From Lichina pygmaea (taxonomy: Eukaryota > Ascomycota > Lichinomycetes > Lichinales > Lichinaceae), in assembly GCA_963422465.1 (NCBI GenBank), contig OY730170.1, positions 2,046,001-2,110,000 of the forward strand: a stretch of DNA of 64,000 bases, in the 5' to 3' direction. A program made the position numbers and the translations under genes. This document shows, in pieces, positions 8,709 to 60,739 of the stretch. Each line of letters starts with the position of its first letter. The first letter of the stretch is position 1. A model generated the notes under the pieces. That model was not told where the DNA came from. It saw only the letters and a list, made by a program, of their open reading frames with translations, and ran no database searches.

Positions 8709-8840
8709 GGCACAGGTCAACTGTTTCCAGTCTGTGGAGTGGTGCCAGAGTGAGAAGTCACCTGGTTCCCAGCAGTAATAATCTAGTCCTGGGACCAGAC
8801 CCCAAGACTAGACTTTTCTGGGCAGCTTATTCCAACTAAG

Positions 8841-11606
8841 GCCTGCGAAGACTCAAACCTCCACGCGGTGCAGACTGGGAACCTCGGGGCAGCGATGGCA
8901 GGCAGTCTCCCAAGCTGCTTGTAGTCACTGCACCAAGAGCTAATTGAGTCACCGGTCGAGCTGCTGGTGCCTGTGGAGTGACAGGCCACCGGAGGTGTCG
9001 TGCAGGCACCCTGGACACCCCTGTGAAGTGACATCAGCAGAACAGAGGACTTCGACCAAACTGGTTATGAAAACCACCTGACAGATGTCTACTGTGTACG
9101 CTACAGCCTGAAGCCAGCCTTGCAACTGGTGGATGTGAGGTCTAGACACCTGACAGGGCACCTCTGGAGTAGACGAGAGGAGTTCCTATCACACACCCCC
9201 TTTCTGGCAGAGTCTCCAGCAGCTGATGCATCGAGGATCTTGTTCTAGGAGGGGAGTGATGTCTGTACCGCGGTGTTGTTAATCGAACAGGGACTACATG
9301 TTAAAGAAGGCGAGCAGGTGGCACAAAGGGTTTCCACTGCTCCAGTACCTAAGGGCTGTGTGATAGTCAAAGTGCTGGCTTGATGGTTTTGCCTAAGTTC
9401 TTGCCACAGATTGTCTTCAGGCTACCTACAGACTGGGGCCAGAGCACTGGATCTCCAGTGGGCCACCACGTACAACTGGAACCCCACAGGTGACAGCAGG
9501 CAGATGGAGACTTCTCCCTACTTGGTTAGTGGGCTGGAAAGGTGGTCCTGCAGGTGCTGGCATGGCCTGCAGGGTCCGTAGAGTCTGCGAGGCATGGTCG
9601 GCCTCTGTACAAGAGATCTACAGAGATAACACAAAACAGTGAGAGCTGCGGGGTGTGGCATATAATAGCAGTGATGGCAGTAGGGTCTGGGCCTACTACG
9701 AGACTGTCTATATGGCCTGAGAGGACGGAAGCGCATTCCGGTCTGTACAGAGTGCAGGCTCAGGCTGCAAATGACAGGCTCAAGGAGCAAACTGCAGTTG
9801 GAGCGTGGGCTCCGGGCTGGCAACCCGGCGCTCCGAAGCAGGACCTAGGGGTGAGTGTACACGGCAGAGTGCAAAAGACCTCAGGACTGCGGGGAAGCGT
9901 GGCAGAGACCCTGCACAGGATGTCGACTCTGCGCTATGCCTCGGCATAGCTCAACTGTGGCCTATGACAGAGTTCTCCCCAAGATACTACAGCAAATTCT
10001 GAAAAGAAAAGGAATACCTGCCTGGCTAGCTTCCTGGATCTACTCCTTCTGTGATAAGTGCTCTACCACTCTTGTCTTTGATGATTCTGAGTCTTGTTCT
10101 ATTCCTATTCATTGTGGAGTTTCTCAAGGTTCTCCATTATCCCCTATTCTTTTTCTATTCTACATTTCTGAATTGCATGAGACTGTGCATACTCCCTCTT
10201 CTGGTGTATCTGCCCTGGGGTTTGCAGATGATACAAATCTGCTTGCTTTTGGTCACTCCTTGAAAAGTAACCTTCTGAAGTTAAAGAACACACACCTCAA
10301 ATGTCTATCATGGGCTGCAAGACATGGAATGGTCTTCTCTCCTGAGAAATATGAAATACTTCATTTTTCCAGAAGAAGATCAGACAATCTTCAGCTCAAG
10401 CTCAGACTGGGGAATGTGATTCTCAAACCAAAAGAAGAAGTGTGAGTACTTGGAGTGTACCTAGATGCAAAGCTCCACTGGCACAAACACCAGAGGATTA
10501 TTCTTCAAAAAGCACAGAAAGCACTCTCTTCTCTTTCTAGAACTTCCTATTCTACTTGGGACTTTCCAGTTCACACATCACGTCTGGTGTACACTGCTAT
10601 ACTGAGATCTCTACTGAGCTATGCAGTGGGGATCTGGTTTAACCCTCTAAGAAAATCCTCCAATATCTCTTCTCTTGTTTCATTTCAAAACAGATGCCTA
10701 AGACTTATTGGGGGTGCCTTCAAAGCCACTCCTTCTTTTCTATTAGAGAGTGAGCTTTTTCTTCTACCTCTAGACCTCTACTTTAAATTTCGCACTGCCT
10801 GTTTTCTTTCTTCTATTCAAAACTCCCCTCTCAAATACTTTCTTGACAGTATCTTTTCCACTATTTCCAGGTATGCCTCTCTCTTGAAGATACCTTTAAA
10901 GGAATCCTCAACTATCTCTCCTAAGTGGAAATTCACTTGGTTAAGTCAAATAACTACTAACCAGGCTAGTTCAAAGAAGGAACTACAAAAGCTCTTTACT
11001 AAAGAGTGGGAAGACCAATGGGAAGAGAAGAAAAGAAGAAGCTATCCAGGCTGGCAGACTTTCTGTCAAAAGCCACACAAAAACAATCTGAAGCTTGACA
11101 AAGAGTTCCAGAAAGCTGAGGCAAGTCTGCTACTGCAAATCAGGACTGGAAGAATTGGTCTGGCAAGTTTTCTTTTCAGAGCTGGAGTTCCTGACTTCCC
11201 TACCCCACTATGTGTGTGTGGCCAAGCAGAAGAAACTGCAAAACATATCACCTCTTCATGCTCTCTTTATTCAAGGCAAAGACAACAAGTCTCTTTTAAT
11301 CCCCAAGACTTCACCACTATTATTTCAAACCCAGAGCTACTACAGAAGTTCTTGTACTGGTTTATGTCTTTGAAAAGACTAAACCAGTTTAATCTAGCTT
11401 TCAAACTCCACTATTCCCAATCTAATACCTAGATTCTCTTCTCTTACCAGAAACTTCAAGATTTCTTTTGTTACATTCCCTAGTCACACCCTGCCTTCAG
11501 TTTTTATCCCTTCAAAGGTTTTCTGAAGGAGTTCACTATTAGCTAGAAGATCTGCATGGCTGTAAAGCTACTACCAGTGTAAGAATCAAATAAAAAATAA
11601 AAAAAA
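8841..11606 (+). mobile_element. Chimeric element beta: RepB + 5'-truncated LINE-A with target-site duplication
   Basis: A single 2.77-kb unit is flanked by the 12-bp direct repeat ATTCCAACTAAG (8829-8840 and 11607-11618). The first 1120 bp (8841-9960) are RepB, from GCCTGCGAAGACTC to CTCAACTGTGG. The rest (9961-11606) is LINE-A from inside the RT domain (just before YDRVLP) to the LINE 3' UTR and an A-rich tail. One duplication spanning both parts shows that RepB and LINE entered the genome together. The LINE half has one in-frame stop (see 9961-11432). This matches the structure known for Magnaporthe MINE elements (WEIRD sequence + MGL LINE). Confidence 0.9.
9961..11432 (+). pseudogene. LINE-A ORF2 C-terminal half in chimera beta
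   Basis: The frame starts mid-RT at AYDRVLPKILQ and keeps CGVSQGSPLSP and FADDTNLLA. After a TGA at 10443-10445 (CGA in the intact copy) it continues in the same frame through the thumb region to the C-terminal Cys/His motif CVCGQAEETAKHITSSC and ends at SNT (stop 11430-11432). Apart from that stop it is undamaged, so decay is slight. Without the endonuclease and the first RT motifs it cannot be autonomous. Confidence 0.85.
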
Positions 11607-11965
11607 ATTCCAACTAAGCTCTGGGTAAAGCTAGAAGTAATCACCTAGACTAGGGACCAGACCCTCTATCTAGACTTTCCTTGAGTTGAGAACTCTGCTA
11701 GCTCTAGAGTCACTCAGACTCTAACTATTCCTCTTATTCTAAGACTCTCTCTCTCTGATTGTGGATGGATTGCTGGTTGTTGAAGAAGATCATAGATCCC
11801 AGGATCACAACTTGTGACAAACAGGTGTGATTCTCAAAGGTGATGGGTTTTCACCTAAGGTTTGAGTGGGTTGGAACAGGATGTCAGCTGTTTTCCAGAA
11901 CATATGGCAAATTCCAGTCTTTACCAAAAGTGATGGTCCTTGAACAGTGTGGATCCAGACATGAG

Positions 11966-30590: not shown

Positions 30591-31017
30591 TTATGAGTAT
30601 ACTGCTTGAGCATAGAAATGATTAGATGCTGGTGTTTGCATATTTTTCTCAATTCTGTTCAGTCTCTGGAGAACTTTCTGGATCTCTTGTCCAGTGGTGG
30701 AAGGTGTAGCTATATGGCTTGCTAGCTGGGTGGTGATTTTGTTCCATACTGCCTGTACTTTTGGGGGAGCTTTAGACTGGTTTAGCCAGACTTCAACAAT
30801 CTGGGATACTGGCAGTGTGTTTTCTCCAGCTTGTTGATCTGGTATTGCCAGAGAGGTATCTTGTTAGCTTGGCTCTGGGGGAATAGATAGAGAAGAAGAG
30901 CTGGATTGGATGTTGGGGGATCTGGGAGCCAGTATAGACATTGGTACTCTAGAGTTGTATTGGGGAGGACTGGGTTTTTTCTTTTTTCAGACTATAGCTC
31001 TGGGCCACAGTTGAGCT
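30591..31017 (-). mobile_element. LINE-C ORF1 N-terminal fragment fused to 12 bp of RepB
   Basis: A second copy of the LINE-C ORF1 start (30904-31005 repeats 27460-27557) continues into further ORF1 sequence to about 30591. At its right end CCACAGTTGAGC (31006-31017) is the reverse complement of the RepB 3' terminus, as in the chimeras. This suggests another RepB-LINE fusion of which almost all RepB is lost. Confidence 0.55.
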
Positions 31018-31270
31018 TTTTTATTTTTATTTCTATTTGATTCTTACACTGGTAGTAGCTTTACAGCCATGCAGATCTTCTAGCTAATAGTGAACTTCTT
31101 CAGAAAACATTTGAAGAGATAAAAACTGAAGGCAGGGTGTGACTAGGGAATGTAACAAAAGAAATCTTGAAGTTTCTGGTGAGAGAAGAGAATCTAGGTA
31201 TTAGATTGGGAATAGTGGAGTTTGAAAGCTAGATTAAACTGGTTTAGTCTTTTCAAAAACAGAAACCAGT
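31018..31270 (-). mobile_element. 5'-truncated LINE-A tail
   Basis: About 250 bp of LINE-A 3' UTR with the last ORF2 codons on the minus strand; the A/T tail is on the left (TTTTTTTATTTTTATTTC). It sits between the RepB stub and RepB copy gamma. No target duplication is evident, so one side has been rearranged. Confidence 0.75.
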
Positions 31271-33069
31271 AGGCCTGCAACAACTCAAACCTCCACGTGG
31301 TGCAGGCTGGGAACCTCAGGGCAGTCGATGGCGGGCGGCTTCCCAGACTGCTCGTAGTCGCTGCACCAAGAGCTAATCAAGTCACCAGTCGAGCTGCTGG
31401 TGTTGCGGAGTGTCGGGCCACTGGAGGTGTTGCGCAGGCACCCTGGACACCCCTGTGAAACAGCTACAGCAGAACAGAGGACTGTGACCAAGCTTGGGAG
31501 ATGAAAACCACCTGACAGACAACTACTGTGTACCCTACAGCTTGAAGCCATCCCCACATCTGGTGGATCTGAAGTCTAGGTGTCTGATAGGGCACCTCTG
31601 GAGTAGTTGACAGGAGTTCTTGTCACGTCACCCTTCTAGCAGTCTCCAGCTAACGCATGAGGATCTGCTAGGGGGGGAGTGGCCTTGGCACTGTAGTGTT
31701 GTTAATCAAACACAGACCACCTGTTAAAGAAGGAGAGTCGTCGTACAAGGAGACGTCACCACTCCAGTGCCTAAGGGCTGTGTGATAGCCAAAGTGCTGG
31801 CTCAATAGTTTTGCCTAAGGCCTTGCCACAAAGTCTCTTCGTACGATCCACAATCTGGGGCCAGGGGACTGGGTTATCCAGTGGGCCAACAGGTGCAACC
31901 AGGACCCCACAGGCGACAGCGGACTAAGGAGAACTTCTCCCTACTTGGTTAGTGGGCTGGAAAGACAGCCCTGCAGGTGCTGGCACAGCCTGCAGGGTCT
32001 GTAAGGCCTGCGAGGCATAGTTGGCCTTTGTACAAGAGATCTGCGAAGGTAACACAAAACAGTTAACAACTGCGAGGTGTGGTATATAATAGCAGTGACA
32101 GAGGTAGGGCCTGGGCCTACTACAAGACTGTCTATATAGTCTGAGAGGACAGATGCGTATACCAGTTCGTACAGAGTGCAGGCATAGGCTGCAAACAGGT
32201 TCTGCCCAGCTCTAGCTATTCTGACTTCAACATGCTGGAAACTGGAGTACTTCCCTGAAAGATTTAAGAGTGCAAAAACAGTCTGCTTGAGGAAACCTGG
32301 CAAGGGAACCTACAATCAAGCTAAAGCCTGGCGCCCTATAGCTCTGCTAAACACAACAGGCAAGCTGATGGAAGCTATTGCTGCAGCCAGACTAAGCAAG
32401 ATAGCAGAAGAAGCTGGACTATTGCCAGATATCCAGATGGGCTTTAGGAAAGGAAGATCCACAGAAGCAGCACTTTTCCTTCTAACCTCCCAAGTGGAAA
32501 AAGTCTGGAAGGAAGGCATGGTTGCATCCCTACTCTCACTGGATATCTCAGGAGCCTATGACAGAGTTCTCCCCAAGATACTACAGCAAATTCTGAAAAG
32601 AAAAGGAATACCTGCCTGGCTAGCTTCCTGGATCTACTCCTTCTGTGATAAGCGCTCTACCACTCTTGTCTTTGATAATTCTGAGTCTTATTCTATTCCT
32701 ATTCATTGTGGAGTTCCTCAAGGTTCTCCATTATCCCCTATTCTTTTTCTATTCTACATTTCTGAATTGCATGAGACTGTGCATACTCCCTCTTCTGGTG
32801 TATCTGCCCTGGGGTTTGCAGATGATACAAATCTGCTTGCTTTTAGTCACTCCTTGAAAAGTAACCTTCTGAAGTTAAAGAACACACACCACAAATGTCT
32901 ATCCTGGGCTGCAAGACATGGAATGGTCTTCTCACCTGAGAAATATGAAATACTTCATTTTTCCAGAAGAAGATCAGACAATCTTCAGCTCAAGCTCAGA
33001 CTGGGGAATGTGATTCTCAAACCAAAAGAAGAAGTGCGAGTACTTGGAGTGTACCTAGATGCAAAGCTC
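31271..33069 (+). mobile_element. Chimeric element gamma: RepB + LINE-A, 3' end lost
   Basis: RepB (31271-32197) starts GGCCTGCAACAACTC and stops about 190 bp short of the usual RepB 3' end. It is joined at TGCAAACAGG to LINE-A (TTCTGCCCAGCTCTAGC, 32198 on). The LINE half runs through the RT core to KPKEEVRVLGVYLDAK, where chimera delta begins at 33070. Here the Arg codon (CGA) that is a stop in alpha, beta and delta is intact. RepB in this copy is CpG-poor compared with the delta copy. Confidence 0.8.
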
Positions 33070-33174
33070 CGGCCTGCGAAGACTCAAACCTCCACGTGGT
33101 GCAGGCTGGGAACCTCGGGGCAGCGATGGCAGGCAGTCTCCCAAGCTGCTTGTAGTCGCTGCACCGAGAGCTAA
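32287..33174 (+). pseudogene. LINE-A RT core in chimera gamma, truncated by another insertion
   Basis: The frame begins MRKPGKGTYNQAKAWRPIAL (a natural internal Met) and holds QMGFRKGRST, LSLDISGAYDRV, CGVPQGSPLSP and LGFADDTNLLA. After LGVYLDAKL it runs into RepB of chimera delta and reads about 35 unrelated residues before a stop. The thumb and C-terminal domains are missing, so no functional protein is expected. Confidence 0.75.
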
Positions 33175-33350
33175 TTTTGATTTTTGATTTGATTTGATTC
33201 TTACACTGTTTGTAGCTTTACAGCCATGCAGATCTTCCAGCTAATAGTGAACTTCTTCAGAAAACCTTTAAAGGAATAAAAACTGAAGACAGGGAGGTGA
33301 CTAGAAAGTGTAGCAAAAGGAAATCTTGTAGTGTCTGGTAGGAAAAGCTT

Positions 33351-36300
33351 CTAGATGTTGGAGTGTGAATAGTGAAGTTTGAAAGCCAGATTAAATTGGT
33401 TTAGTCTTTTCAAAGACATAAACCAGTACAGAAACTTCTGTAGAAGCTCTGGGTTTGAAATAATAGTAGTGAAATCTTGGGGGTTAAAGAGAGCATGTTG
33501 TCTTTGACTTGAGTAGAGAGAGCATGAAGAGGTGATATGCTTTACTGTCTCTTCTGCTTGACCACACATGCATAGGGGGGTAGGAAAGTCAGGGACTCCA
33601 GCTCTGAAAAGAAAACTTGCTAGACCAATTCTCCCAGTTCTGGTTTGCAGTAGTAGACTTGCCTCAGCTTTCTGTAGCTCTTTGTAGAGCTTTAGGTTGT
33701 TGTAGTGAGGTTTTTGGCAAAACACCTGCCATCCAGCATAGCCTTTTCTTTTCTTCTCCTCCCATTGGTTTTCCCACTCTTTAGTAAAGAGTATTTGTAG
33801 TTCTTTCTTTGAACTAGCCTGGTTAGTAGTTATTTGACTTAACCAAGTGAACTTCCAATTAGGAGAGATAGTTGAGCATTTCTTTAAAGGTTTCCTCAGT
33901 GAAGAAGCATAGGAAGAAATAGTAGAAAAGGTACTGTCAAGAAAGTCTTTCAGAGAGGAGGTTTGGATAGAAGATAGAAAACAAGCTGTGCGAAATTTAA
34001 AATAGAGATCTAGAGGTAAAAGAAAAAGCTCACTCTCTAATAGAAAAGAAGGAGTGGCTTTGAAAGCACCCCCAATAAGTCTCAGACATTTGTTTTGGAA
34101 TATGATAAGAGAGGAAATATTAGAGGATTTTCTGAGTGGGTTGAACCAAATTCCCACTGCATAGCTCAGTACAGATCTGAGTATTGCAGTGTACACAAGG
34201 CGTGCTGTGAGAACTGGAAAGCCCCAGGTGGAGTAAGAGGTTCTAGAAAGAGAAGATAGTGCTTTTTGTGCTTTTTGAAGAATAATTCTCTGGTGTTTGT
34301 GCCAGTGGAGTTTGGCATCCAGGTACACTCCCAATACTCGCACTTCTTCTTTTGGTTTTAGAATCACATTCCCAAGTCTAAGCTTGAGCTGCAGATTGTC
34401 TGATCTTCTTCTGGAAAAATGAAGTATTTCATATTTCTCAGGAGAGAAGACCATTCCATGTCTTGCAGCCCAAGATAGACATTTAAGATGTGTATTCTTC
34501 AACTTCAGAAGGTTGCTTTTAAGAGAGTGTCCAAATGCAAGCAGATTTGTATCATCTGCAAATCCCAGAGCAGAAACACCAGTAGTAGGAGAATGTACAG
34601 TCTCATGAAGTTCAGAAATATAGAATAGAAAAAGAATAGGAGACAAAGGGGAACCTTGGGGAACTCCACAGTGAATAGGAATAGAAGAGGACTCAGAGTC
34701 ATCAAAAACTAGGGTGGTGGTACGTCTGGTACAGAAAGAGAAGATCCAAGAAGTTAGCCAGAGAGGGATTCCTTTTCTCTCCAGAATCTTTTGAAGAATC
34801 TCTGGAAGAACTCTGTCATATGCTCCTGAGATGTCCAGAGAAAGTAGAGATGCAACCATGCCTTCTTTCCAGACTTTTTCCACTTGGGAAGTTAGAAGGA
34901 AGAGTGCTGATTCAGTTGATCTGCCTTTCCTGAACCCCATCTGGATTTCTGGCAAGAGTTTAGCCTCTTCTGCTACCTTGCTTAGTCTGGCTGCTGTAAT
35001 AGCTTCCATCAGCTTGCCAGTTGTGTTTAGCAGAGCTATAGGGCGCCAGGCTTTAGCTTGGTTATAGATTCCCTTGCCAGGTTTTCTTAGACAGACTGTT
35101 TTTGCATTCTTGAATTTCTCTGGAAAGTATTCCAGTCTCCAGCATGTTGATGTGAGAACAGCTATAGCTTGGCAGAACTTGGGACCCAGAGCTTTCAGAA
35201 ATCCATTTGGCAGCTTGTCTTTTCCTCCTGCTGTAAAAGGTTTCTTCTTGTTCAGAATTTGCTCCACTTCTTCAGTGGTAACCTCCTGAGAAAGCTGGAT
35301 CTCTGGGGTACTCTGGTGACTTTCTGTACTTGGTTCTGGAACACGTGCTTCTGGAAAGAATTGAGCTGAGAAAGATTTTGTCTTCTCCTCAAAGCTTTTG
35401 GCTAGTCCTTCTTGAGTCTCCAGATCAGGGACCAGAGGAAGATCAGGGGTCTTGTTAGCTTTTGATTTTCCCCACTTTGCAAGCTTCCAGAATTTTGAGG
35501 AACTGGCTAGCTCATGAACTTGTTTTCTGAAGGTGTTCTGTTTGCCTTCTCTGACAGCTTTCTTCTTGAGCTTAGTTGCTTCTTCTAGCTCTTCTTGGCT
35601 TGCCTGTCCTCTGAGCACTTGTCTTCTTATTCTTCTTTCCTGCTTAACTTTAGTTTGGATCTCTTGGTTCCACCAGGGGACTGAGTGGCTAGATTGCTTC
35701 TGGAGTTCTGTGCATCTGTCTGCTATTTCTTGGAGAAAGTGGTTAAGATATTCCAAGTACTCGTCCACTTCATGTTTATCTTGAAAGTGGAAGGGCAGCT
35801 GCAAATTATTACACTCTTGTTTTGCCAGGTTTGTGTCCAGTGTTTTCCAGTTCCTTTCTGGCTTCCAGGTTTTTCTTGGTGAGTCCAGGTCCAGGCTAGT
35901 TAGCACAGGTCTGTGGTCAGACCCATGAAAGAACTGCAAAGCAATTTTAGAAAAGATTAGAGAGTTAGAAAGAGAAGAAGATATAAAGGAAAGATCAATA
36001 GGTGAACAGGGTTTGTGGGAAAGAGATCTAGCTCTTGTGGGTGTAAAAGGTGCAATAGCTAACTCCAGATTTGAGTTTTTCATTAGAGTTTGGAACTTGT
36101 GTGCAGTGTCAGAATATAGTCTTCTTTTCTTTGACCAGTCAGGGTGGTGAAGATTTGAGTCTGTAAGAAGAATATGCTGCCCTTTTGCTTGTAAAGCATT
36201 TTGGAGTAGACAGAGAAGAGCTTCTGATGCTTGTAGGTAGTTCTCTTGACTTGAGGGAGTGAAGTATAGATTATGCACCCACAGAGAAGTAGAGGTGTTT

Positions 36301-36593
36301 TCCAGATGAATTTCAAGAGAAACAAAGTTTTTACTCCAGAAAGTAGGGTGGAGAGATGACAGATTCAGGTTTTTGTTAATAAGAAAAAGAGTTCTACCAA
36401 TCTCTGGAGAAAATAAAGGAAGAAAAGAAGAAAAAACAGTTGAGGTGCTGGTTTGAAGGTGAGGATTCTTCCAGGGTTCTTGAAGTGCAATAATATCTAC
36501 TTCTTGAAGAGTTGGGGTTGCTAGAAGTAGCTCTTGGACTGATTGGCTTTTCTGCACATTGTATTGAAGAAGTGTGAACTTTGTATTCTTCAT
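33351..36593 (-). CDS. LINE-A ORF2: endonuclease / reverse transcriptase, 1080 aa, intact
   Basis: The N-terminal endonuclease (about 1-230) carries TLLQYNVQKS, ALQEPWKNP, LLTDSNLHHPDWSK and HGSDHRPVLTS. A Lys/Glu-rich linker follows. The RT (about 440-760) has KAWRPIALLNTTGKLME, QMGFRKGRSTESALF, LLSLDISGAYDRVLP, HCGVPQGSPLSPILFLFY and the catalytic LGFADDTNLLAF, then HGMVFSPEKYEILHFSRRR. The C-terminus holds CMCGQAEETVKHITSSC, the Cys/His motif typical of many LINE ORF2 proteins. I see no RNase H motif (no YTDGS), which canonical Tad1 has. Its ATG overlaps the ORF1 stop by four bases. It should nick DNA and copy the LINE RNA at the nick. Confidence 0.95.
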   Translation of the reverse strand: MKNTKFTLLQYNVQKSQSVQELLLATPTLQEVDIIALQEPWKNPHLQTSTSTVFSSFLPLFSPEIGRTLFLINKNLNLSSLHPTFWSKNFVSLEIHLENTSTSLWVHNLYFTPSSQENYLQASEALLCLLQNALQAKGQHILLTDSNLHHPDWSKKRRLYSDTAHKFQTLMKNSNLELAIAPFTPTRARSLSHKPCSPIDLSFISSSLSNSLIFSKIALQFFHGSDHRPVLTSLDLDSPRKTWKPERNWKTLDTNLAKQECNNLQLPFHFQDKHEVDEYLEYLNHFLQEIADRCTELQKQSSHSVPWWNQEIQTKVKQERRIRRQVLRGQASQEELEEATKLKKKAVREGKQNTFRKQVHELASSSKFWKLAKWGKSKANKTPDLPLVPDLETQEGLAKSFEEKTKSFSAQFFPEARVPEPSTESHQSTPEIQLSQEVTTEEVEQILNKKKPFTAGGKDKLPNGFLKALGPKFCQAIAVLTSTCWRLEYFPEKFKNAKTVCLRKPGKGIYNQAKAWRPIALLNTTGKLMEAITAARLSKVAEEAKLLPEIQMGFRKGRSTESALFLLTSQVEKVWKEGMVASLLSLDISGAYDRVLPEILQKILERKGIPLWLTSWIFSFCTRRTTTLVFDDSESSSIPIHCGVPQGSPLSPILFLFYISELHETVHSPTTGVSALGFADDTNLLAFGHSLKSNLLKLKNTHLKCLSWAARHGMVFSPEKYEILHFSRRRSDNLQLKLRLGNVILKPKEEVRVLGVYLDAKLHWHKHQRIILQKAQKALSSLSRTSYSTWGFPVLTARLVYTAILRSVLSYAVGIWFNPLRKSSNISSLIIFQNKCLRLIGGAFKATPSFLLESELFLLPLDLYFKFRTACFLSSIQTSSLKDFLDSTFSTISSYASSLRKPLKKCSTISPNWKFTWLSQITTNQASSKKELQILFTKEWENQWEEKKRKGYAGWQVFCQKPHYNNLKLYKELQKAEASLLLQTRTGRIGLASFLFRAGVPDFPTPLCMCGQAEETVKHITSSCSLYSSQRQHALFNPQDFTTIISNPELLQKFLYWFMSLKRLNQFNLAFKLHYSHSNI

Positions 36594-37990
36594 GTAGACA
36601 TTTCATCTTCAAAGATCTTGAAGGGGTTGACTGACTGCTTTCCCCCTGTGTTTGTTGATCTTGTAGACAGAATTTGCACTTCTGGAGACCCTTCTCTGAG
36701 TCTCTCTGAGCTTCTAGTTGGCTCTGTGGTTTTCCGTCTTTTTCCCCCTGGAAGAGTCTGTATGAAGGGGAAAGTAACTGGAGACTGTGTGACTGGGACA
36801 GTGGTAGCAGTGGAGATCTCATACTTCCCTGGGCGGGAAATCCATGCCTCTCTTGCCTTCTTGACTGCTTCTTGGCGTACTGGGCATGTGCTAGCCCAGG
36901 CTGGGTGAGCTCCTTTGCAGTTGCTGCATTTTGGCTTTAGCAGTTGCTCAGGGATTTGGCAGGTTCTTCTTTCATGCTGGCCTCCACAGGCACCACATAC
37001 AGCTTGATTCCTGCACAGGCGAGCTTGGTGTCCATACCCAAAGCACTTGAAGCATTGTGCCACCACTGTGTTAGCCAGAAAAGGCTCTGCCTCATGCAAT
37101 CTGTGGCCCAGCACTACTCCACTCTCAATTAGAAGATTGGCCTGTTCCGGGGTGGCCAGATCCAGGTGGAGTGAAGTAACTGGTTTCTTTTGAGCTATAG
37201 CCTTCTTTGACCAGTAGGCTCTTAGAATAGTGATTTGCTTGCTCAGGGATGGGTTGCTGTTCTGGATAGTCTGGCGAGTTTTTTCCAGGTTTTCTGGCTG
37301 GATGTCTGTGGTTCTGACTCCATGAATCAACACTGGGAATCTCTTGGGTTGGATAGTTGCTTCCTTGGTAAAAATAGCTGATATCCAGGCAGAGTCTTTC
37401 TCCAGAAAACTCTTAGTCTCTTGGGTTTCAGTGTTAATAAGAATGTCCCCTGAGGGAAGTTTTCTCACTGCTCTGACTTGTTTATTATAGGGACTGGGGA
37501 GTCTGTCTTGGAGAGCTTGAAAAAGCTGGATGTGAGTCCTGTTGGCCATATCAGGTGTCTGGTTACCAGGGTGGACAAGAACTTCCTTCAGAATCCTTGG
37601 AGCTAGAGGGATTTGAGCTGGGATATGTTTCTGAACAGCCTGGGCATATGATGGCTTAGATTCTTGCTTGTCTAGCCGCTTGCTAATATTCTCCAGCTCC
37701 TGGAAAATCTTGTTGGTCAGACCAGTGGGGAGAGACTGGGTTTTGGTGGACTGGGCTTCATTAGTACAAGAGTTTTTCTTAATATTCTCCCAGCTTTTCA
37801 GTACAGATTCTGGGGTAGCTTGAGTCTTGAGCCATGAGTCCAGTAGGTTGTAGTCATTCTGGAGAGCTGGATAGGGGGTAGAAGAACTAGGCTGAGTACC
37901 AGCAGAACTGGGAGCTGGCATTGTTGGAGAAGGTGTTGTTTTTCTGGTAGTGTTCTGGGAGGAGTCCGGTTTCTTCTTTTTGACAGGCAT
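36590..37990 (-). CDS. LINE-A ORF1: RNA-binding protein with three zinc knuckles, 466 aa
   Basis: The frame is open upstream to 38032, but the Met at 37990 (MPVKKKKPDSSQNTTRK) is chosen because it aligns with the start of copy 1 (MAPKKKK). A Ser/Thr/Pro/Gln-rich N-terminus is followed by a helical stretch (LENISKRLDKQESKPSYAQA), then the conserved middle (VRAVRKLPSGDILIN, FPVLIHGVRT). Knuckles CFKCFGYGHQARLC, CGACGGQHERRTC and CSNCKGAHPAWASTC follow, and a basic patch GGKRRKTTEPTRSS. It probably coats LINE RNA. The stop TGA overlaps the ORF2 ATG. Confidence 0.93.
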   Translation of the reverse strand: MPVKKKKPDSSQNTTRKTTPSPTMPAPSSAGTQPSSSTPYPALQNDYNLLDSWLKTQATPESVLKSWENIKKNSCTNEAQSTKTQSLPTGLTNKIFQELENISKRLDKQESKPSYAQAVQKHIPAQIPLAPRILKEVLVHPGNQTPDMANRTHIQLFQALQDRLPSPYNKQVRAVRKLPSGDILINTETQETKSFLEKDSAWISAIFTKEATIQPKRFPVLIHGVRTTDIQPENLEKTRQTIQNSNPSLSKQITILRAYWSKKAIAQKKPVTSLHLDLATPEQANLLIESGVVLGHRLHEAEPFLANTVVAQCFKCFGYGHQARLCRNQAVCGACGGQHERRTCQIPEQLLKPKCSNCKGAHPAWASTCPVRQEAVKKAREAWISRPGKYEISTATTVPVTQSPVTFPFIQTLPGGKRRKTTEPTRSSERLREGSPEVQILSTRSTNTGGKQSVNPFKIFEDEMST

Positions 37991-39495
37991 AGGGTAGGTA
38001 ACCTGCACAGTGGGTTGTTCACAAAGGGTCACCTGGTTCCTAGCAGTAATTGCACAATCCTGGGACCACTCCCCAAGACTGTACTTTCCTGGGCAGTCTT
38101 TTCCAACTAGACTCTAGGGAAATCTGGCTGTATTAACTCAAGCTGGAGACCACACCCCCTGCCTGAGCTTTCCTAGAGTTTTTCAACTCTACCAGCACTA
38201 GAGGCAAGCTCTAAACCATTTCTCTTATCCTGGGAGCCCTGATCTCCTTGATGCTAGATGTTTCTCTTGAGAGAAGTTCAAGCTGTTATCTGTCTGACTG
38301 GGAGTACTTGCTCAATCCTGGGACCACACCCCAAGACTGAGTGTTCCTAGGTAATTGGGGCCTGTCCCCAGTCTTTCAGAATCCCACTGGCCACTCTCTG
38401 CCTTGTTATAGATAGTCTGTTGGTTGTTGAAGTTGAAGATCGAAGATTCAGAGATCACAACTTTTGACAAACAAGCTGGGTTACCCAAAGTGATGGGTTT
38501 TCACCTTAAGGTTTTGGTGGTTCCCAACAGATACTCGCTTCGTTTCCAGAACTTCTGACAAAGTCCGGTGATTATCAGAAGTGATGGTCCTTGAACGTAG
38601 TGGTACTGGGAAGAGTTTGACTGAGAGCTAATTGAGTCACCGGTCGAGCTGCTGGTGCCCGTGGAGCGACGGGCCACCGGAGGTGTCGTGCAGGCACCCT
38701 GGACACCCCCGTGAAGTGACATCAGCAGAACAGAGGACTTCAACCAAACTGGTTATGAAAACCACCCAACAGATGTCTACCGTGTACGCTACGGCCCGAA
38801 GCCAGCCTTGCAACTGGTGGATGTGAAGTCTAGACACCCGACAGGGCACCTCTGGAGTAGACGAGAGGAGTTCCTATCGCACACCCCCCTTCTGGCAGAG
38901 TCTCCAGCAGCTGATGCATCGAGGATCTTGTTCTAGGAGGGGAGTGATGTCTGTACCACGGTGTTGTTAATCGAACAGGGACTACGTGTTAAAGAAGGCG
39001 AGCAGGTGGCACGAAGGGTTTCCGCTACTCCAGTACCTAAGGGCCGTGTGATAGTCAAAGTGCTGGCTTGATGGTTTTGCCTAAGGTCTTGCCACGGATT
39101 CTCTTCGGGCCACCTACAGACCGGGGCTAGGGCACTGGAGGTTCTCCAGTGGGCCACCACGTACATCCGGGGTCCCACAGGCGACAGCGGGCAGACGGAG
39201 ACTTCTCCCTACTTGGTTAGTGGGCTGGAAAGGCGGTCCTGCAGGTGCTGGCATGGCCTGCAGGGTCCGTAGAGCCTGCGAGGCATGGTCGGCCTCTGTA
39301 CGAGAGATCTACAGAGATAACACGAAACAGCGAGAGCTGCGGGGCGTGGCATATAATGGCAGTGACGGCAGTAGGGTCTGGGCCTACTACGAGACTGTCT
39401 ATATGGCCCGAGAGGACAGAAGCGCATGCCGGTCCGTACAGAGTGCAGGCTCAGGCTGCAAATGACGGGCTCAAGGAGCAAACTGCAGTTGGAGC

Positions 39496-41427
39496 GTGGG
39501 CTCCGGGCTGGCAACCCGGCGCTCCGAAGCAGGACCTAGGGGTGAGCGTACACGGCGGAGCGCAAAAGACCTCAGGACTGCGGGGAAGCGTGGCAGAGAC
39601 CCTGCACGGGATGTCGACTCTGCGCTATGCCTCGGCATAGCTCAACTGTGGTCTGACACTGCACACAAGTTCCAAACTCTAATGAAAAACTCAAATCTGG
39701 AGTTAGCTATTGCACCTTTTACACCCACAAGAGCTAGATCTCTTTCCCACAAACCCTGTTCACCTATTGATCTTTCCTTTATATCTTCTTCTCTTTCTAA
39801 CTCTCTAATCTTTTCTAAAATTGCTTTGCAGTTCTTTCATGGGTCTGACCACAGACCTGTGCTAACTAGCCTGGACCTGGACTCACCAAGAAAAACCTGG
39901 AAGCCAGAAAGGAACTGGAAAACACTGGACACAAACCTGGCAAAACAAGAGTGTAATAATTTGCAGCTGCCCTTCCACTTTCAAGATAAACATGAAGTGG
40001 ATGAGTACTTGGAATATCTTAACCACTTTCTCCAAGAAATAGCAGACAGATGCACAGAACTCCAGAAGCAATCTAGCCACTCAGTCCCCTGGTGGAACCA
40101 AGAGATCCAAACTAAAGTTAAGCAGGAAAGAAGAATAAGAAGACAAGTGCTCAGAGGACAGGCAAGCCAAGAAGAGCTAGAAGAAGCAACTAAGCTCAAG
40201 AAGAAAGCTGTCAGAGAAGGCAAACAGAACACCTTCAGAAAACAAGTTCATGAGCTAGCCAGTTCCTCAAAATTCTGGAAGCTTGCAAAGTGGGGAAAAT
40301 CAAAAGCTAACAAGACCCCTGATCTTCCTCTGGTCCCTGATCTGGAGACTCAAGAAGGACTAGCCAAAAGCTTTGAGGAGAAGACAAAATCTTTCTCAGC
40401 TCAATTCTTTCCAGAAGCACGTGTTCCAGAACCAAGTACAGAAAGTCACCAGAGTACCCCAGAGATCCAGCTTTCTCAGGAGGTTACCACTGAAGAAGTG
40501 AAGCAAATTCTGAACAAGAAGAAACCTTTTACAGCAGGAGGAAAAGACAAGCTGCCAAATGGATTTCTGAAAGCTCTGGGTCCCAAGTTCTGCCAAGCTA
40601 TAGCTGTTCTCACATCAACATGCTGGAGACTGGAATACTTTCCAGAGAAATTCAAGAATGCAAAAACAGTCTGTCTAAGAAAACCTGGCAAGGGAATCTA
40701 TAACCAAGCTAAAGCCTGGCGCCCTATAGCTCTGCTAAACACAACTGGCAAGCTGATGGAAGCTATTACAGCAGCCAGACTAAGCAAGGTAGCAGAAGAG
40801 GCTAAACTCTTGCCAGAAATCCAGATGGGGTTCAGGAAAGGCAGATCAACTGAATCAGCACTTTTCCTTCTAACTTCCCAAGTGGAAAAAGTCTGGAAAG
40901 AAGGCATGGTTGCATCTCTACTTTCTCTGGACATCTCAGGAGCATATGACAGAGTTCTTCCAGAGATTCTCCAAAAGATTCTGGAGAGAAAAGGAATCCC
41001 TCTCTGGCTAACTTCTTGGATCTTCTCTTTCTGTACCAGACGTACCACCACCCTAGTTTTTGATGACTCTGAGTCCTCTTCTATTCCTATTCACTGTGGA
41101 GTTCCCCAAGGTTCCCCTTTGTCTCCTATTCTTTTTCTATTCTATATTTCTGAACTTCATGAGACTGTACATTCTCCTACTAATGGTGTTTCTGCTCTGG
41201 GATTTGCAGATGATACAAATCTGCTTGCATTTGGACACTCTCTTAAAAGCAACCTTCTGAAGTTGAAGAATACACATCTTAAATGTCTATCTTGGGCTGC
41301 AAGACATGGAATGGTCTTCTCTCCTGAGAAATATGAAATACTTCATTTTTCCAGAAGAAGATCAGACAATCTGCAGCTCAAGCTTAGACTTGGGAATGTG
41401 ATTCTAAAACCAAAAGAAGAAGTGTGA
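39496..41427 (+). CDS. RepB-LINE fusion frame: partial endonuclease + RT, 643 aa
   Basis: About 52 residues from RepB (MGSGLATRRSEAGPRGERTR to GIAQLW) continue in frame into LINE-A ORF2 at SDTAHKFQTLMKNSNLE, in the second half of the endonuclease. The frame then passes through the linker and the whole RT core, with FADDTNLLAFG, and ends at a TGA after KPKEEV (41425-41427) where the intact copy has CGA. LINE sequence goes on in the same frame but with further stops at 41725 (TAA) and 42001 (TAG for Trp). The normal ORF2 stop is also lost, so the last piece reads on to 42564. The endonuclease is incomplete, so autonomy is unlikely. Confidence 0.65.
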   Translation: MGSGLATRRSEAGPRGERTRRSAKDLRTAGKRGRDPARDVDSALCLGIAQLWSDTAHKFQTLMKNSNLELAIAPFTPTRARSLSHKPCSPIDLSFISSSLSNSLIFSKIALQFFHGSDHRPVLTSLDLDSPRKTWKPERNWKTLDTNLAKQECNNLQLPFHFQDKHEVDEYLEYLNHFLQEIADRCTELQKQSSHSVPWWNQEIQTKVKQERRIRRQVLRGQASQEELEEATKLKKKAVREGKQNTFRKQVHELASSSKFWKLAKWGKSKANKTPDLPLVPDLETQEGLAKSFEEKTKSFSAQFFPEARVPEPSTESHQSTPEIQLSQEVTTEEVKQILNKKKPFTAGGKDKLPNGFLKALGPKFCQAIAVLTSTCWRLEYFPEKFKNAKTVCLRKPGKGIYNQAKAWRPIALLNTTGKLMEAITAARLSKVAEEAKLLPEIQMGFRKGRSTESALFLLTSQVEKVWKEGMVASLLSLDISGAYDRVLPEILQKILERKGIPLWLTSWIFSFCTRRTTTLVFDDSESSSIPIHCGVPQGSPLSPILFLFYISELHETVHSPTNGVSALGFADDTNLLAFGHSLKSNLLKLKNTHLKCLSWAARHGMVFSPEKYEILHFSRRRSDNLQLKLRLGNVILKPKEEV

Positions 41428-43291
41428 GTATTGGGAGTGTACCTGGATGCCAAACTCCACTGGCACAAACACCAGAGGATTATTCTTCAAAAAGCACAGA
41501 AAGCACTATCTTCTCTTTCTAGAACCTCTTACTCCACCTGGGGCTTTCCAGTTGTCACAGCACGCCTTGTGTACACTGCAATACTCAGATCTGTACTGAG
41601 CTATGCAGTGGGAATTTGGTTCAACCCACTCAGAAAATCCTCTAATATTTCCTCTCTTATCATATTCCAAAACAAATGTCTGAGACTTATTGGGGGTGCT
41701 TTCAAAGCCACTCCTTCTTTTCTATAAGAGAGTGAGCTTTTTCTTTTACCTCTAGATCTTTATTTTAAATTTTGCACAGCTTGTTTTCTATCTTCTATCC
41801 AAACGTCCTCTCTGAAAGACTTTCTTGACAGTACCTTTTCTACTATTTCTTCCTATACTTCTTCACTGAGGAAATCTTTAAAGAAATCCTCAACTATCTC
41901 TCCTAATTGGAAGTTCACTTGGTTAAGTCAAATAACTACTAACCAGGCTAGTTCAAAGAAAGAACTACAAATACTCTTTGCTAAAGAGTGGGAAAACCAA
42001 TAGAAGAAGAAGAAAAGAACAGGCTATACTGGATGGCAGGTGTTTTGCCAAAAACCTCACTGCAACAACCTAAAGCTCTACAAAGAGCTACAGAAAGCTG
42101 AGGCAAGTCTACTACTGCAAACCAGAACTGGGAGAATTAGTCTACCAAGTTTCCTTTTCAGAGCTGGAGTCCCTGACTTTCCTATCCCCCTATGCATGTG
42201 TGGTCAAGCAGAAGAGACAGTAAAGTATATTACCTCTTCATGCTCTCTCTACTCAAGTCAAAGACAACATGCTCTTTTTAACCCCCAAGATTTCACTACT
42301 ATTATTTCAAACCCAGAGCTTCTACAGAAGTTTCTGTACTGGTTTATGTCTTTGAAAAGACTAAACCAATTTAATCTGGCTTTCAAACTTCACTATTCAC
42401 ACTCCAACATTGAGAAGTTTTTCCTACCAGACACTACAAGATTTCCTTTTGCTACACTTTCTAGTCACCTCCCTGTCTTCAGTTTTTATTCCTTTAAAGA
42501 TTTTCTGAAGAAGTTCACTATTAGCTGGAAGATCTGCATGGCTGTAAAGCTACAAACAGTGTAAGAATCAAATCAAATCAAAAAAAATAGATTTCCAGCT
42601 GTCGACCCAACTCTTCCCAGTACCACATCGTCAAAGGACCATCACTTTTGACAATCAGCGAAATTTGTCATAAGTCCTGGCAACCAGTCGCGAAGCTTGC
42701 TGAAACCACCCACTTCCCAAGGGTGAAAACCCATCACTTTTCTGAATCAGCCCTATTGGTCAAAAGTTGTGATCCCAGAACTCACGTCTTCTTGCTTCAA
42801 CTACCAACCACCCAGCCACAACAAGAGTGAGAGGGACCAGAGGTAACCTGAAGGACTGGGCAAAGCCCTACCTACCTTGGAACAATCAGCCCTGAGACCA
42901 AAACTCAGGATTAAGCCAGTACTCCCAGTCTATCAGAGATAAAACACCAAACCTCTCCTAAAAGTGAGAAACATCCACCAACAAGGAGATCAGAGCTCCC
43001 AGGATAAGAGGAATAGTTTAGAGCTTGCCTCTAGTGCTGGTAGAGTTGAAAAACTCTAGGAAAGCTCAGGCAGGGGGTGTGGTCTCTAGCTTGAGTTAAT
43101 ACAACCAGATTTCCCTAGAGTCTAGTTGGAAAAGACTGCCCAGAAAAGTACAGTCTTGGGGAGTGGTCCCAGGATTGTGCAACTACTGCTAGGAACCAGG
43201 TGACCCTTTGCGAACAACTGGAAGAAGCCTCCAAAAGAGTCTCACCAATCTCAGCCAAAAAGAACTACTGGAAGATATCTAAAATCATATA

Positions 43292-56400: not shown

Positions 56401-57820
56401 TTTGGCCACCTGGTTCTGGGGTGTGCCTGTCAAGGCAGACCTCTTCTCTTGAGAGTTGTCCTTTCTGTTGGTGAGGTTCCACTGAGGACTCCTTCCCTCA
56501 TCTGTCCACACCTTCTGCGGCTGGTAACAGGTCTGAGCTGTGTTGTTAGTGCAGTTCCTAAATGTGAGTACTCCTGTTCTCCAGTTAACAACTGGGTTGT
56601 ACTTCTTTAGCCAAGGCATCCCCAAATAGATATCCTGAGTGGCCAACTTGACAATATCAAGGTGGATCCTTTCAGCATAGTGTCTGGTAACTATTTCCAT
56701 TGGCTGCGTCTTATGGCAGACTAGCTCTGTCTGTCTATTTGCCATCACAAGCTGATAGAGCTGCTGCTTGCGTCTCCTCCCAGTGTCAAGGGTGTTGTAA
56801 AGTTGTCTTGAAATGTAGTTTCCACTGGCTCCAGAGTCAACAAGTGTGTATGTCTGTACTGGCGTGTTGGCGTGTAGTGACACAGGTAATCGCAGGTGCT
56901 TTGTGTTGCTAGGGGTCATGTTGTTGAGCTCCCAATATCACCCCTTGACAAGGGAGTTCAGTCTTTTCCTGATTGAAGTGTCTTTCCACTGACTGGGCAA
57001 TGGGTCCAGCCATTCCCATCAGTTCTGAGGAATCTGTTCATGAATTTGTCTTGCTGATGCTTGTCACATCCAGGCTTGAGGCAGTACTGCCAATTGTTGA
57101 CGTAGCAGTTGTGGTTGTTGCCTTGCTGTAGGAACATGAGGTGTTTGTGCCAATCATGTGTGTGCCCAGGGAACACAGTGTGTTAGTGTTTGTCCCAGAG
57201 ATAGATCTCACACACATCCTTCTTGCAATTGACCCAATGTTTGTGGCAGATGGTGCGGTAGGGTGAATGTCCTCTGTACCTTCGTAGTTGTTCGTGGTAG
57301 GTGTAGTAGTGCTTTGTGCAAAACCTCCACTGTAGTTCACTGTGCTGTAGATTTTGTGGGTCCATACTGTAAGCATAGCTTCCTTGTGGTATTTCTTCTT
57401 TGATAGACACAGGTTTGTCTTAGTCTCTATCAGAGGTGGTTAAGAGCTCCTGTCCCTTGTCCTGACCTGTCTGTTCTGGTAGGTCCTTGCCTCCTGATGT
57501 TGCCAGTTGGTGGACTCCTTCCAATGTCTGATTGTAGTTGTCCTATTGTTTGAGGGATAGCTGAGCCTCTCCTGGTGGGTCCTCTGGCTTGATAACATTC
57601 CAGTCTCTGTCAAGTATATTAAGTTGCTGTCAGTGCACCTTGTTCTTTGAACAACAGTCTTTCACCATGTGGCCTAGCTTGCCACAGGTATAGCACTTCA
57701 GTGCTTTCCTTTTTTTGTTATTCCTTCCCTTCATAAACCTTCCCTTGTGGTGGACTGCATCCAGTTCCATGGGTGCATAGCTATATAGGTCATGTGGCAG
57801 TGCCTTGTTAGGCGGCTTGT

Positions 57821-59820
57821 TTTTTTTTTATTTTATTTATTTATTTGATTCTTACACTGGTAGTAGCTTTACAGCCATGCAGATCTTCTAGCTAATAGTG
57901 AACTCCTTCAGAAAACCTTTGAAGGGATAAAAACTGAAGGCAGGGTGTGACTAGGGAATGTAACAAAAGGAATCTTGAAGTTTCTGGTAAGAGAAGAGAA
58001 TCTAGATATTGGATTGGGAATAGTGGAGTTTGAAAGCTAGATTGAACTGGTTTAGTCTTTTCAAAGACATAAACCAGTACAAGAACTTCTGTAGTAGCTC
58101 TGGGTTTGAAATAATAGTGGTGAAGTCTTGGGGATTAAAAGAGACTTGTTGTCTTTGTCTTGAATAAAGAGAGCATGAAGAGGTGATATGTTTTGCAGTT
58201 TCTTCTGCTTGGCCACACACACATAGTGGGGTAGGGAAGTCAGGAGCTCCAGCTCTGAAAAGAAAACTTGCCAGACCAATTCTTCCAGTCCTGATTTGCA
58301 GTAGCAGACTTGCCTCAGCTTTCTGTAACTCTTTGTGGAGCTTCAGATTGTTTTTGTGTGGCTTTTGACAGAAAGTCTGCCAGCCTGGATAGCTTCTTCT
58401 TTTCTTCTCTTCCTATTGGTCTTCCCACTCTTTAGTAAAGAGCTTTTGTAGTTCTTTCTTTGAACTAGCCTGGTTAGTAGTTATTTGACTTAACCAAGTG
58501 AATTTCCACTTAGGAGAGATAGTTGAGGATTCCTTTAAAGGTTTCTTCAAGAGAGAGGCATAGCTGGAAATAGTGGAAAAGATACTGTCAAGAAAGTATT
58601 TGAGAGGGGAGTTTTGAATAGAAGAAAGAAAACAGGCAGTGCGAAATTTAAAGTATAGGTCTAGAGGTAGAAGAAAAAGCTCACTCTCTAATAGAAAAGA
58701 AGGCCACAGTCGTAGTATGCCAGAACATAGTGTAGAGTTGGCACCCTCCCACAGGGTCTCTACCACGCTTTCCCACAGTCCCGAGGTCTCTTGCACTCCA
58801 CTGTACGTGCTCACCCCTGGGATCCTGCTTCGGAGCGCTGAGTCACCAGCCCAGAGCCCACGCTCCAACTGTAGTTTGCTCTCTGAGCTTGTCGTTTGCA
58901 GCCTAATCCTGCACTCCGTACGAACCGGCATGCGCATCTGTCCTCTCGGGCCATATAGACAGTCTTGTAGTAGGCCCAGGCCCTACCTCCGTCACTGCCA
59001 TTATATGCCACACCTCACAGTTGTGAACTGTTTCGCGTTACCTTCGCAGATCTCTCGTACAAAGGCCGACCATGCCTCGCAGGCCTTACGGATCCTGCAG
59101 GCTGTGCCAGCACCTGCAGGGCTGCCTTTCCAGCCCACTAACCAAGTAGGGAGGAGTTCTCCTTGGTCCGCTGTCGCCTGTGGGGCCCCGGTTGCACCTG
59201 TTGGCCCACTGGATAACCCAGTCCCCTGGCCCCAGATTGTGGATTGTACGAAGAGACTTCGTGGCAAGGCCTTAGGCAAAACCATCAAGCCAGCACTTTG
59301 GCTATCACACAGCCCTTAGGCACTGGAGCGGCGACATCTCCTCGTACGACCACTCTCCTTCTTTAACAGGTGGTCCCTGTTCAATTAACAACACCGCGGT
59401 GCCAAGGCTACTCCCCCCCTAGCAGATCCTCACGCGTTAGCTGAAGACTCTGCTAGGAGGGTGACGTGACGAGAACTCCTCTCGACTACTCCAGAGGTGC
59501 CCTATCAGACGCCTAGACTTCACATCCACCAGCTGTGGGGCTGGCTTCGGGCCGTAGCGTACACGGTAGTCGTCTGTCAGGTGGTTTTCCTCTCCCAAGC
59601 TTGGTCGCAGTCCTCTGTTCTGCTGTAGCTGTTTCACGGGGGCATCCAGGGTGCCTGCGTGACACCTCCGGTGGCCCATCACTCCGCAACACCAGCAGCT
59701 CGACTGGTGACTCGATTAGCTCTCGGTGCAGCGACTACGAGCAGCCTGGGAAGCCGCCCGCCATCGACTGCCCCGAGGTTCCCAGCCTGCACCACGTGGA
59801 GGTTCGAGTTGTTGCAGGCC
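57821..59820 (-). mobile_element. Chimeric element epsilon: RepB + LINE-A with 12-bp target duplication
   Basis: A 2000-bp unit in G3 gag, flanked by TAGGCGGCTTGT (57809-57820 and 59821-59832). On the minus strand RepB runs 59820-58704, beginning GGCCTGCAACAACTCG, and joins LINE-A in the ORF2 thumb region (SFLLESELFLLPLDLYFKF). LINE-A continues to the 3' UTR and an A/T tail at 57821. As in beta, a single duplication encloses both parts, which proves joint insertion. Within RepB a minus-strand frame reads through the position where the delta copy has a stop (GLGCKRQAQRANYSWSVGSG), so this frame was once longer. Confidence 0.93.
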
Positions 59821-60739
59821 TAGGCGGCTTGTAGTGGTTGCTCACATGCCATGCAGGGTGGCTGTATCTTCTGTCATGGTGCTTCTCCATCACTTGCTCA
59901 AATAACTTGTTGTTGATGTTGATTGCTTGTGTGATGAGTTCATCCAGTGTGTTGACTGCTTGTCTGTCAAAGGTGATCTCATCCTTCATGTTTTCCTTGA
60001 GTCCACGTCAGTACATGACTATCAGGGCATTGTCATCCCAGTTGGTCAGTACTGAGTATTGTTTGAACTGCGTGGTGTACTCTGCGGCTGAGTGTTGTTG
60101 TTTGATGTGCTGGATCATTTGTATAGCCACTTTGTCTTTGTTAGATAGTCTAAGGATTCTTTTGATCTTGTCCTTGAATTGTGTCTATTTTGTCATCCAT
60201 TCTGACATACCATCATGGTCTCTGTTTCCTGAGAGATGTTTGTTGACGTAGGGCTTGATCTATCAATAAGCATTACCTCTCATGTAAGTGGTTGCGAACA
60301 GGGGCCACTTCTCCTTAGGCAGCTTTGTCTCTGGTTAGAATTGAAAGTAGACTTGGAGTTGCATAAGCCAGTCATCAACCTTGTTTCTTTCACTGTAGAA
60401 CAGGTCTGGCTTGGTGACACTAATCTTTCTATCTGGGAAGTTGGGGTTGGTTGCTCCTGAGGTACTCATCCTTGAGGGTCTTCAAAGTGTTGCAGTCTGT
60501 ATTGTGCTGTCCTAACTGAGTATAGGATTAAGGGTGAGATGTGGAAGGCAGGTTGGTTCTTGCAGGAGAGGAGTGTCAAGGAGTGTGAAGGGGTTTGGTG
60601 GAACGTGGTGGTGGTGACACCTGATCAATGGCTTTGTACAAAAGGATTGTATTGAAGTTGATCTAGTTGTCTGGATCACAACTTGAGTTGAAGACAATTG
60701 TTCTATAGGGGAACTATTGTCAGACTATATAGTGCTGGC

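Follow-up and report, generated by a model that had tools for sequence, protein, structure and literature searches.

The closest described counterpart of the locus analysed here is MINE of Magnaporthe, a chimera of WEIRD (1,113 nt) and MGL (PMC2104539). As far as the excerpted text of that 2007 paper goes, WEIRD has no gene, function or relatives, yet it has sharp ends; the switch motif is given as GCC*A/U, with a published site list that is itself variable, and six pairs share switch sites. Excerpts of PMC2104539 and PMC13174262 present mammalian U6-L1 and other L1 chimeras as products of a switch from a truncated LINE RNA to a complete structured RNA, with partners that are mostly known cellular RNAs. 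In Drosophila, hybrid R2/R1 SIDEs join a ribozyme 5' end to the 3' end of another LINE, and the R2 reverse transcriptase jumps to a second RNA (U12 snRNA, tRNA); the SIDEs, which occupy fixed rDNA sites, are explained there by recombination or repair events that joined the ends of elements (PMC3414825, in excerpt). HDV-like ribozymes are also described at the 5' ends of R2 and other LINEs, where cleavage falls at or near the 5' junction (PMC3774820, in excerpt).

Here, we analyse a 64-kb stretch of DNA (hereafter the window), which is the sample for all unit counts given below. BLAST and a RepB profile search recovered five copies of a sequence named RepB in the window, all five joined to a LINE, and further profile matches had E values of 0.25 or weaker. 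We consider it probable (roughly 0.85) that a RepB-LINE unit is the product of one retrotransposition event in which the LINE reverse transcriptase jumped to a separate RepB RNA, and that this has happened repeatedly.

The unit at 57821-59820 (U1) is flanked on both sides by a 12-bp target duplication, TAGGCGGCTTGT, and this exact word occurs twice in the whole window (57809-57820 and 59821-59832). Allowing up to one mismatch gives four matches, compared with a mean of 0.12 in 100 shuffles, none of which reached four; in a chance control of random 35-nt flank pairs from the window, 30 of 20,000 pairs share at least 12 nt. The remaining two one-mismatch matches (21528, minus strand; 62953, plus strand) lie in the same gag stretch of related elements that have no insert. 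Both flanks of the U1 site align to these relatives at 86–88%, the sequence runs uninterrupted across the site, and neither RepB nor the LINE is present there, which answers in the negative the concern that gag relatives might already carry RepB without a LINE. The duplication was also sought at the internal joint between LINE and RepB and does not recur there. Because the 12-bp duplication is an outer one and the gag relatives are free of the insert, the ends of U1 are secure and so is its arrival as a single piece. The original prediction, that RepB and a 5'-truncated LINE share one duplication and that the gag host makes the ends unambiguous, is thus borne out for this unit.

Table 1 Coordinates of the RepB-LINE units and of the complete LINE in the window.
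Feature	Position	Strand	Remark
U1 target duplication, LINE 3' side	57809..57820	+	TAGGCGGCTTGT
U1 LINE part (LINE 3' end, 5'-truncated)	57821..58703	-	BLAST
U1 RepB, type B, complete, 1,117 nt	58704..59820	-	
HDV-like ribozyme fold, U1 RepB 5' end	59709..59820	-	RF00094 match 59822-59706
U1 target duplication, RepB 5' side	59821..59832	+	TAGGCGGCTTGT
U2 whole unit	8840-11606	plus	
U2 target duplication, left	8829..8839	+	ATTCCAACTAA; 10 bp when its leading A is counted as tail
U2 RepB, type A, complete, 1,121 nt	8840..9960	+	
U2 LINE part	9961..11606	+	LINE point about 3801
U2 target duplication, right	11607..11617	+	
U3 whole unit	3932-5901	minus	
U3 RepB, type A	4895..5901	-	first ~112-114 nt missing
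U3 LINE part	3932..4894	-	LINE points 3443-4403, ended by later LINE insertion
U4 RepB, first 106 nt	33071..33176	+	with 5' part of ribozyme fold
U4 RepB, rest (type A)	38623..39651	+	
U4 LINE part	39652..42593	+	LINE point 2511
U5 LINE 3' end	31018..31271	-	
U5 RepB, type B	31272..32196	+	inverted relative to U5 LINE 3' end, last ~190 nt missing
U5 LINE part	32197..33070	+	LINE points 3443-4317, <=3 nt from U3 site; exact joint by eye
U6 trace, RepB last 12 nt	31005..31016	-	GCTCAACTGTGG
Complete LINE, inserted in U4 RepB	33177..38622	-	11-bp duplication GAGAGCTAATT

Stand-alone RepB, which the original prediction had named as the finding that would speak against it if such copies were in the majority and had duplications of their own, accounts for none of the five copies in the window, and no solo source of RepB was seen there. 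All four copies that reach the RepB 5' end (U1, U2, U4 and U5) start at the identical G, and two of the five copies are incomplete at one end (U3 lacks ~113 nt at the 5' end and U5 ~190 nt at the 3' end). The further expectation of one duplication around both parts holds in the window for two of the four units that have both outer ends there, U1 (12 bp) and U2 (10–11 bp), and fails for U4 and U5, which abut each other and have no target duplication, the longest words shared by their flanks being 5 nt each; the 3' end of U3 is outside the window. The U2 duplication, written (A)TTCCAACTAA, encloses the RepB and LINE parts together, and a related empty site at about 3562 has neither. In size, the duplications of U1 and U2 match those of LINE copies free of RepB, which are 12 bp for a truncated copy (23244-23661) and 11 bp for the complete one.

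These observations bear on the explanation that the units are two separate neighbouring insertions, with a LINE landing beside an older RepB element or the reverse. Nested insertions are abundant in the window, and the missing duplications of U4 and U5 would be compatible with such a history. It would, however, require repeated hits exactly at the RepB 3' end, and in U1 and U2 the duplication lies outside both parts and the empty sites contain neither RepB nor LINE. Sequential insertion is therefore rejected for U1 and U2, on the single outer duplication and the empty sites, but not for U4 and U5, and as a general explanation we give it a probability close to nil.

Between 31018 and 42593, U5 and U4 form a RepB-LINE-RepB-LINE array that reads the same way throughout; both of its outer ends carry a LINE tail, and a target duplication is lacking. 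It could have been produced by several template jumps, by copying that began at both nicks, or by nested insertions accompanied by a deletion. Within U5, RepB and part of the LINE are inverted relative to the LINE 3' end, an arrangement that we take to be the one expected from twin priming.

The joints themselves have a fixed RepB side and a variable LINE side. The RepB 3' end is common to all four of U1-U4 (..CAACTGTGG, in U1 ..CGACTGTGG) and ends in ..TGTGG, and the bases that follow equal the parental LINE in each of the four (CCT, CCT, CCTA and TCT, respectively); in U1, the first three bases of the LINE part, CCT (58703-58701), are also compatible with a RepB that ends in CCT. The LINE is met at four different points, at about 2511, 3443, 3801 and 4572. 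Written in the notation of Gogvadze 2007, the parental LINE switch sites of U1-U4 are TCC*T, GCC*T, GCC*T and TTC*T, so that two fit GCC*A/U exactly, one with one change and one with two. The LINE part begins with CC at three of four junctions, with 6.05% expected from the LINE (P = 8.5e-4, for a motif picked post hoc). Either the LINE enzyme leaves its template at this motif or the cDNA pairs briefly with the RepB 3' end, GGCC(U), and the data fit both. The GGCCT at the RepB 5' end recurs at the 3' joint of U1, U2 and U3, which, under the bolder reading given below, would fit a tandem or circular RepB RNA; among features of retrozymes or viroid-like circular RNAs, tandem RepB was not found in the window.

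The same joints can be read against splicing, in which RepB RNA would have been joined to LINE RNA, in cis or in trans, before copying. An AG does precede the parental LINE joint in one of four cases (U2). The two LINE bases before the joint in U1-U4 are CT, AG, GG and AT, however, so the AG of an intron end is missing in three of four, and placing the joint behind the shared bases turns them into CT, CT, TA and CT, with AG in none. On the three sites without AG we reject splicing, which we regard as extremely improbable.

Evidence for repeated joining comes from the relationships among copies. RepB falls into two types, A (U2, U3 and U4) and B (U1 and U5), with a between-type identity of 78.8–82.0%, and the LINE parts fall into different groups, U1, U2, U3 and U5 together and U4 separate. 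All ten pairs of units were compared at non-CpG sites, the LINE parts overlapping in eight of them. U1 and U2 diverge by 14.1% in RepB versus 1.7% in the LINE (p 9e-25) and U3 and U5 by 16.2% versus 1.2% (p 2e-31), and for U2 and U4 the relation is reversed, with 1.9% in RepB versus 13.9% in the LINE (p 2e-27). Conflict at p <1e-4 is seen in six of the eight comparable pairs; in the other two there is no clear conflict, it being weak for U4-U5 (p 0.048) and absent for U1-U4 (p 0.94). The U1-U5 comparison, made through the other LINE piece of U5 and over all sites, likewise gives no conflict (p 0.15). Even within type A, U2 and U3 differ at non-CpG sites by 4.8% in RepB versus 0.84% in the LINE, hence the RepB templates themselves were varied. 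Differences between RepB copies are often C/T or G/A at CpG (19 to 54 per pair; LINE parts, 0 to 2), a pattern that CpG decay in this genome would produce, although CpG content differs between the RepB and LINE parts and these figures are uncorrected.

As the conflicts run in both directions, the fusions arose repeatedly, and neither faster change in one part nor a single master is sufficient to account for them. A chimeric master that formed once and has since been copied as a unit would agree with the fusion of all five RepB copies in the window and with the LINE joints of U3 and U5, which are at most 3 nt apart. Yet there are four different LINE points, the RepB and LINE pedigrees disagree both ways, and U3 and U5, although they share a LINE site to within 3 nt, carry different RepB types. 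One chimeric master is thus rejected on the pedigree conflicts, and we hold it to be very unlikely. Comparing the pedigrees of the two parts is a clean way to demonstrate repeated joining from sequence alone.

The complete LINE encodes an ORF1 of 480 aa and an ORF2 of 1,080 aa; endonuclease and reverse transcriptase domains lie in ORF2. It has a different 5' region and no RepB of its own, and the LINE 5' ends at about 3922 and 42605 likewise have a 5' region that is not RepB; the Rfam scan of the window up to E 5 gave no ribozyme match at the LINE's own 5' ends. These three 5' ends count against the explanation that a single LINE family normally has RepB as its 5' region and that the units derive from this longer element by internal deletions, each beginning at the RepB 3' end, which would also need the same deletion base four times and swaps of RepB type between nearly identical LINEs. 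In its favour, HDV-like ribozymes are known at LINE 5' ends (excerpts of PMC3774820), and the U6 trace seems, by eye, to pass from the RepB end into LINE-like sequence near the start of ORF1, where there is no BLAST match, and could be the intact arrangement. On balance, we consider this explanation improbable.

A coding function for RepB was rejected: each of the five copies has stops in all six frames, indels of 1 to 4 nt separate types A and B, and neither of the two ORFs lying over U1 has a match in Pfam. In U1, a run of 204 antisense codons is free of stops, a length that none of the other four copies equals. ARAGORN found no tRNA. Fold stability of the whole of RepB, measured against 40 shuffles each, gave z values of -3.18 (U1) and -1.74 (U2), and because ten control stretches include strand differences equally large, we draw nothing from the strand bias of RepB. 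In a consensus fold of the five copies, 24 of 335 pairs are changed on both sides and the covariation term is slightly unfavourable (+1.56).

At its 5' end, RepB, which the original prediction had left unassigned, probably carries an HDV-like ribozyme, whose activity is predicted from the modelled fold. A whole-window Rfam scan returned nothing at or above the gathering score, and up to E 5 it returned two matches, one of which is HDV_ribozyme at the RepB 5' end of U4 (30.5 bits, E 1.9). In searches of short stretches, the first 111 nt of U1 RepB match RF00094 over the full model with 35.1 bits (E 0.00099, 261-base search) and the 5' end of U2 RepB matches with 30.0 bits (E 0.042). All three scores are below the RF00094 gathering score of 50, and we therefore call the fold HDV-like and not a member of RF00094. 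The cut predicted by the model falls just 5' of the G at 59820, which is the exact 5' boundary of RepB as set independently by the target duplications.

The modelled fold has the nested double pseudoknot of the class, with P1, P2, P3, P1.1 and P4. In U1, P1 is GGCCUGC/GCAGGCU, P3 is ACC/GGU and P1.1 is CC/GG, accompanied by a long P4 and GCUAA; P2 is ACUCGA/UCGAGU in U1 versus ACUCAA/UUGAGU in U2 and U4, one pair being changed on both sides. In U1 and U2, AGCUAA aligns to GGCuAA of the model, and the C of this GCUAA stretch before P2 is presumably the catalytic C of an HDV-like ribozyme. All 42 of 42 pairs form in U1, with P4 itself derived from the U1 fold, and over four copies 158 of 168 cells are paired (94%) versus 27–38% when slid, for a structure that comes partly from U1's own fold. 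Covariation adds little: no more than two pairs are changed on both sides, a number also reached by 453 of 500 shuffles. One pair in P1 is broken in U2 and two in P2 are broken in U5, so these two copies are probably inactive; in the Rfam match of U4, the 3' half is built from other bases than in the favoured fold. A home-made and loose geometric ribozyme search returned 3 hits here, U1 among them, against 64 in 20 random windows. Because the long P4 arm (59722-59777) is nearly self-complementary, the RepB model also gives weak scores on the opposite strand at this position, as well as in U2, U4 and U5. Searched up to E 10, the opposite strand of U2 RepB has no ribozyme match.

In position, fold and predicted cleavage at the 5' junction, the RepB head resembles the ribozymes at LINE 5' ends described in the excerpts of PMC3774820, with the difference that it heads the captured partner and not the LINE. 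It also recalls the Drosophila SIDEs of PMC3414825, as excerpted, in which a ribozyme 5' end precedes the 3' end of another LINE, and the jump proposed here resembles those of R2 to a second RNA; in the RepB units, by contrast, LINE points vary, targets differ and the partner matches no known element. The likeness to the mammalian L1 chimeras (PMC2104539 and PMC13174262, in excerpt) lies in the switch from a truncated LINE RNA to a complete structured RNA, and the difference in the partner, which here is 1.1 kb long, has a ribozyme-like head and matches no known RNA. Pattern scans for RepB found 0 matches in two contig collections, and a search of viral contigs for the LINE ORF2 confirmed 0 of 3 candidates; these results say little, given that the collections are viral, bacterial and archaeal.

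In the mechanism that we favour, the LINE protein would nick the target and copy LINE RNA starting at its 3' tail, and the reverse transcriptase would quit this RNA mid-copy at a GCC*T-like site and resume on the 3' end of a RepB RNA. RepB would be a separate non-coding RNA, copied up to a 5' end that may have been made through self-cleavage by the predicted HDV-like ribozyme. The hybrid cDNA would then be sealed in, yielding one 12-bp target duplication as in U1, and several independent rounds would have used different LINE molecules and different RepB RNAs. Such a jump, which had been proposed in the original prediction and which we infer here, explains why the RepB ends are fixed while the LINE points vary, why there is a single duplication and why the pedigrees are mixed. 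Counted against it are the units without duplication (U4 and U5), the incomplete RepB copies (2 of 5) and the ribozyme scores below 50.

The structure had been likened beforehand to MINE, and the likeness holds for the 5' part, the LINE truncation, the duplication and the switch motif, with WEIRD and MGL compared by description. In both systems, taking MINE as the excerpts of PMC2104539 present it, the partner is non-coding and about 1.1 kb long (1,113 nt there; 1,117 and 1,121 nt for RepB) and forms a complete 5' part, the LINE 3' part is 5'-truncated at varying points, and one duplication of 10–20 bp surrounds both parts (here U1 and U2). For MINE no solo partner was found, and of the five RepB copies within the window none is solo. 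Switch sites resemble GCC*A/U in both, and some pairs share sites. The similar lengths of RepB and WEIRD are suggestive of kinship, for two sequences likened by published description and not by sequence; one MINE primer, whose place within MINE is unspecified in the excerpt of PMC3978060, has no match in the window within 4 mismatches. RepB differs from the MINE partner in comprising two types that are about 79–82% alike, and in the HDV-like fold at its head, the whole word 'ribozyme' being absent from the text of PMC2104539. Searches of open-access papers returned none that describes a ribozyme in WEIRD or MINE, and the whole word 'ribozyme' (singular) is absent from the open-access papers that name WEIRD, MGL and Magnaporthe. 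Judging by sequence and modelled fold, the RepB units are chimeras of the MINE type in which the partner is headed by an HDV-like ribozyme fold: RepB is a partner like WEIRD in size and behaviour whose 5' end coincides with a predicted self-cleavage site. This makes it testable why one RNA is captured repeatedly, and whether it is the LINE's victim or its parasite.

A bolder reading, which we find unlikely, is that RepB is a retroelement with a way of life not seen before, and that the same perhaps holds for WEIRD. In contrast to SINEs, which imitate the LINE tail, such an element would catch the LINE enzyme mid-copy. The RepB 3' end (..GUGG, possibly ..GUGGCCU) would then be a landing place for the LINE enzyme, the predicted 5' ribozyme would cut a clean end from any host transcript, and RepB would persist solely in fused form or as a population of RNAs that lacks a DNA master. 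This reading draws on the diversity of the RepB templates while the LINE is nearly uniform (U2-U3).

Several other features were noted in the window. A diverged LINE (27963-30378) lies within the 5' region of another LINE and has a 14-bp duplication, ATTGGTAGTCTGTT. Host genes are likely at 13573-18993 (glucosidase II beta-like, Rtf2-like and a Lyase_1 family protein), and a fragment of a chromodomain LTR retrotransposon is found at 48887-49360, a content that would suit a fungus. A short element at 6757-7194 combines tRNA-like boxes, recognized by eye, with the LINE 3' tail and has a 13-bp duplication, ATCTGTTCTTCTT; it is probably a SINE that shares the LINE tail. LINE-tail matches of 50–65 nt at 25804, 30144, 49635, 52285 and 61700 may be more such SINEs.
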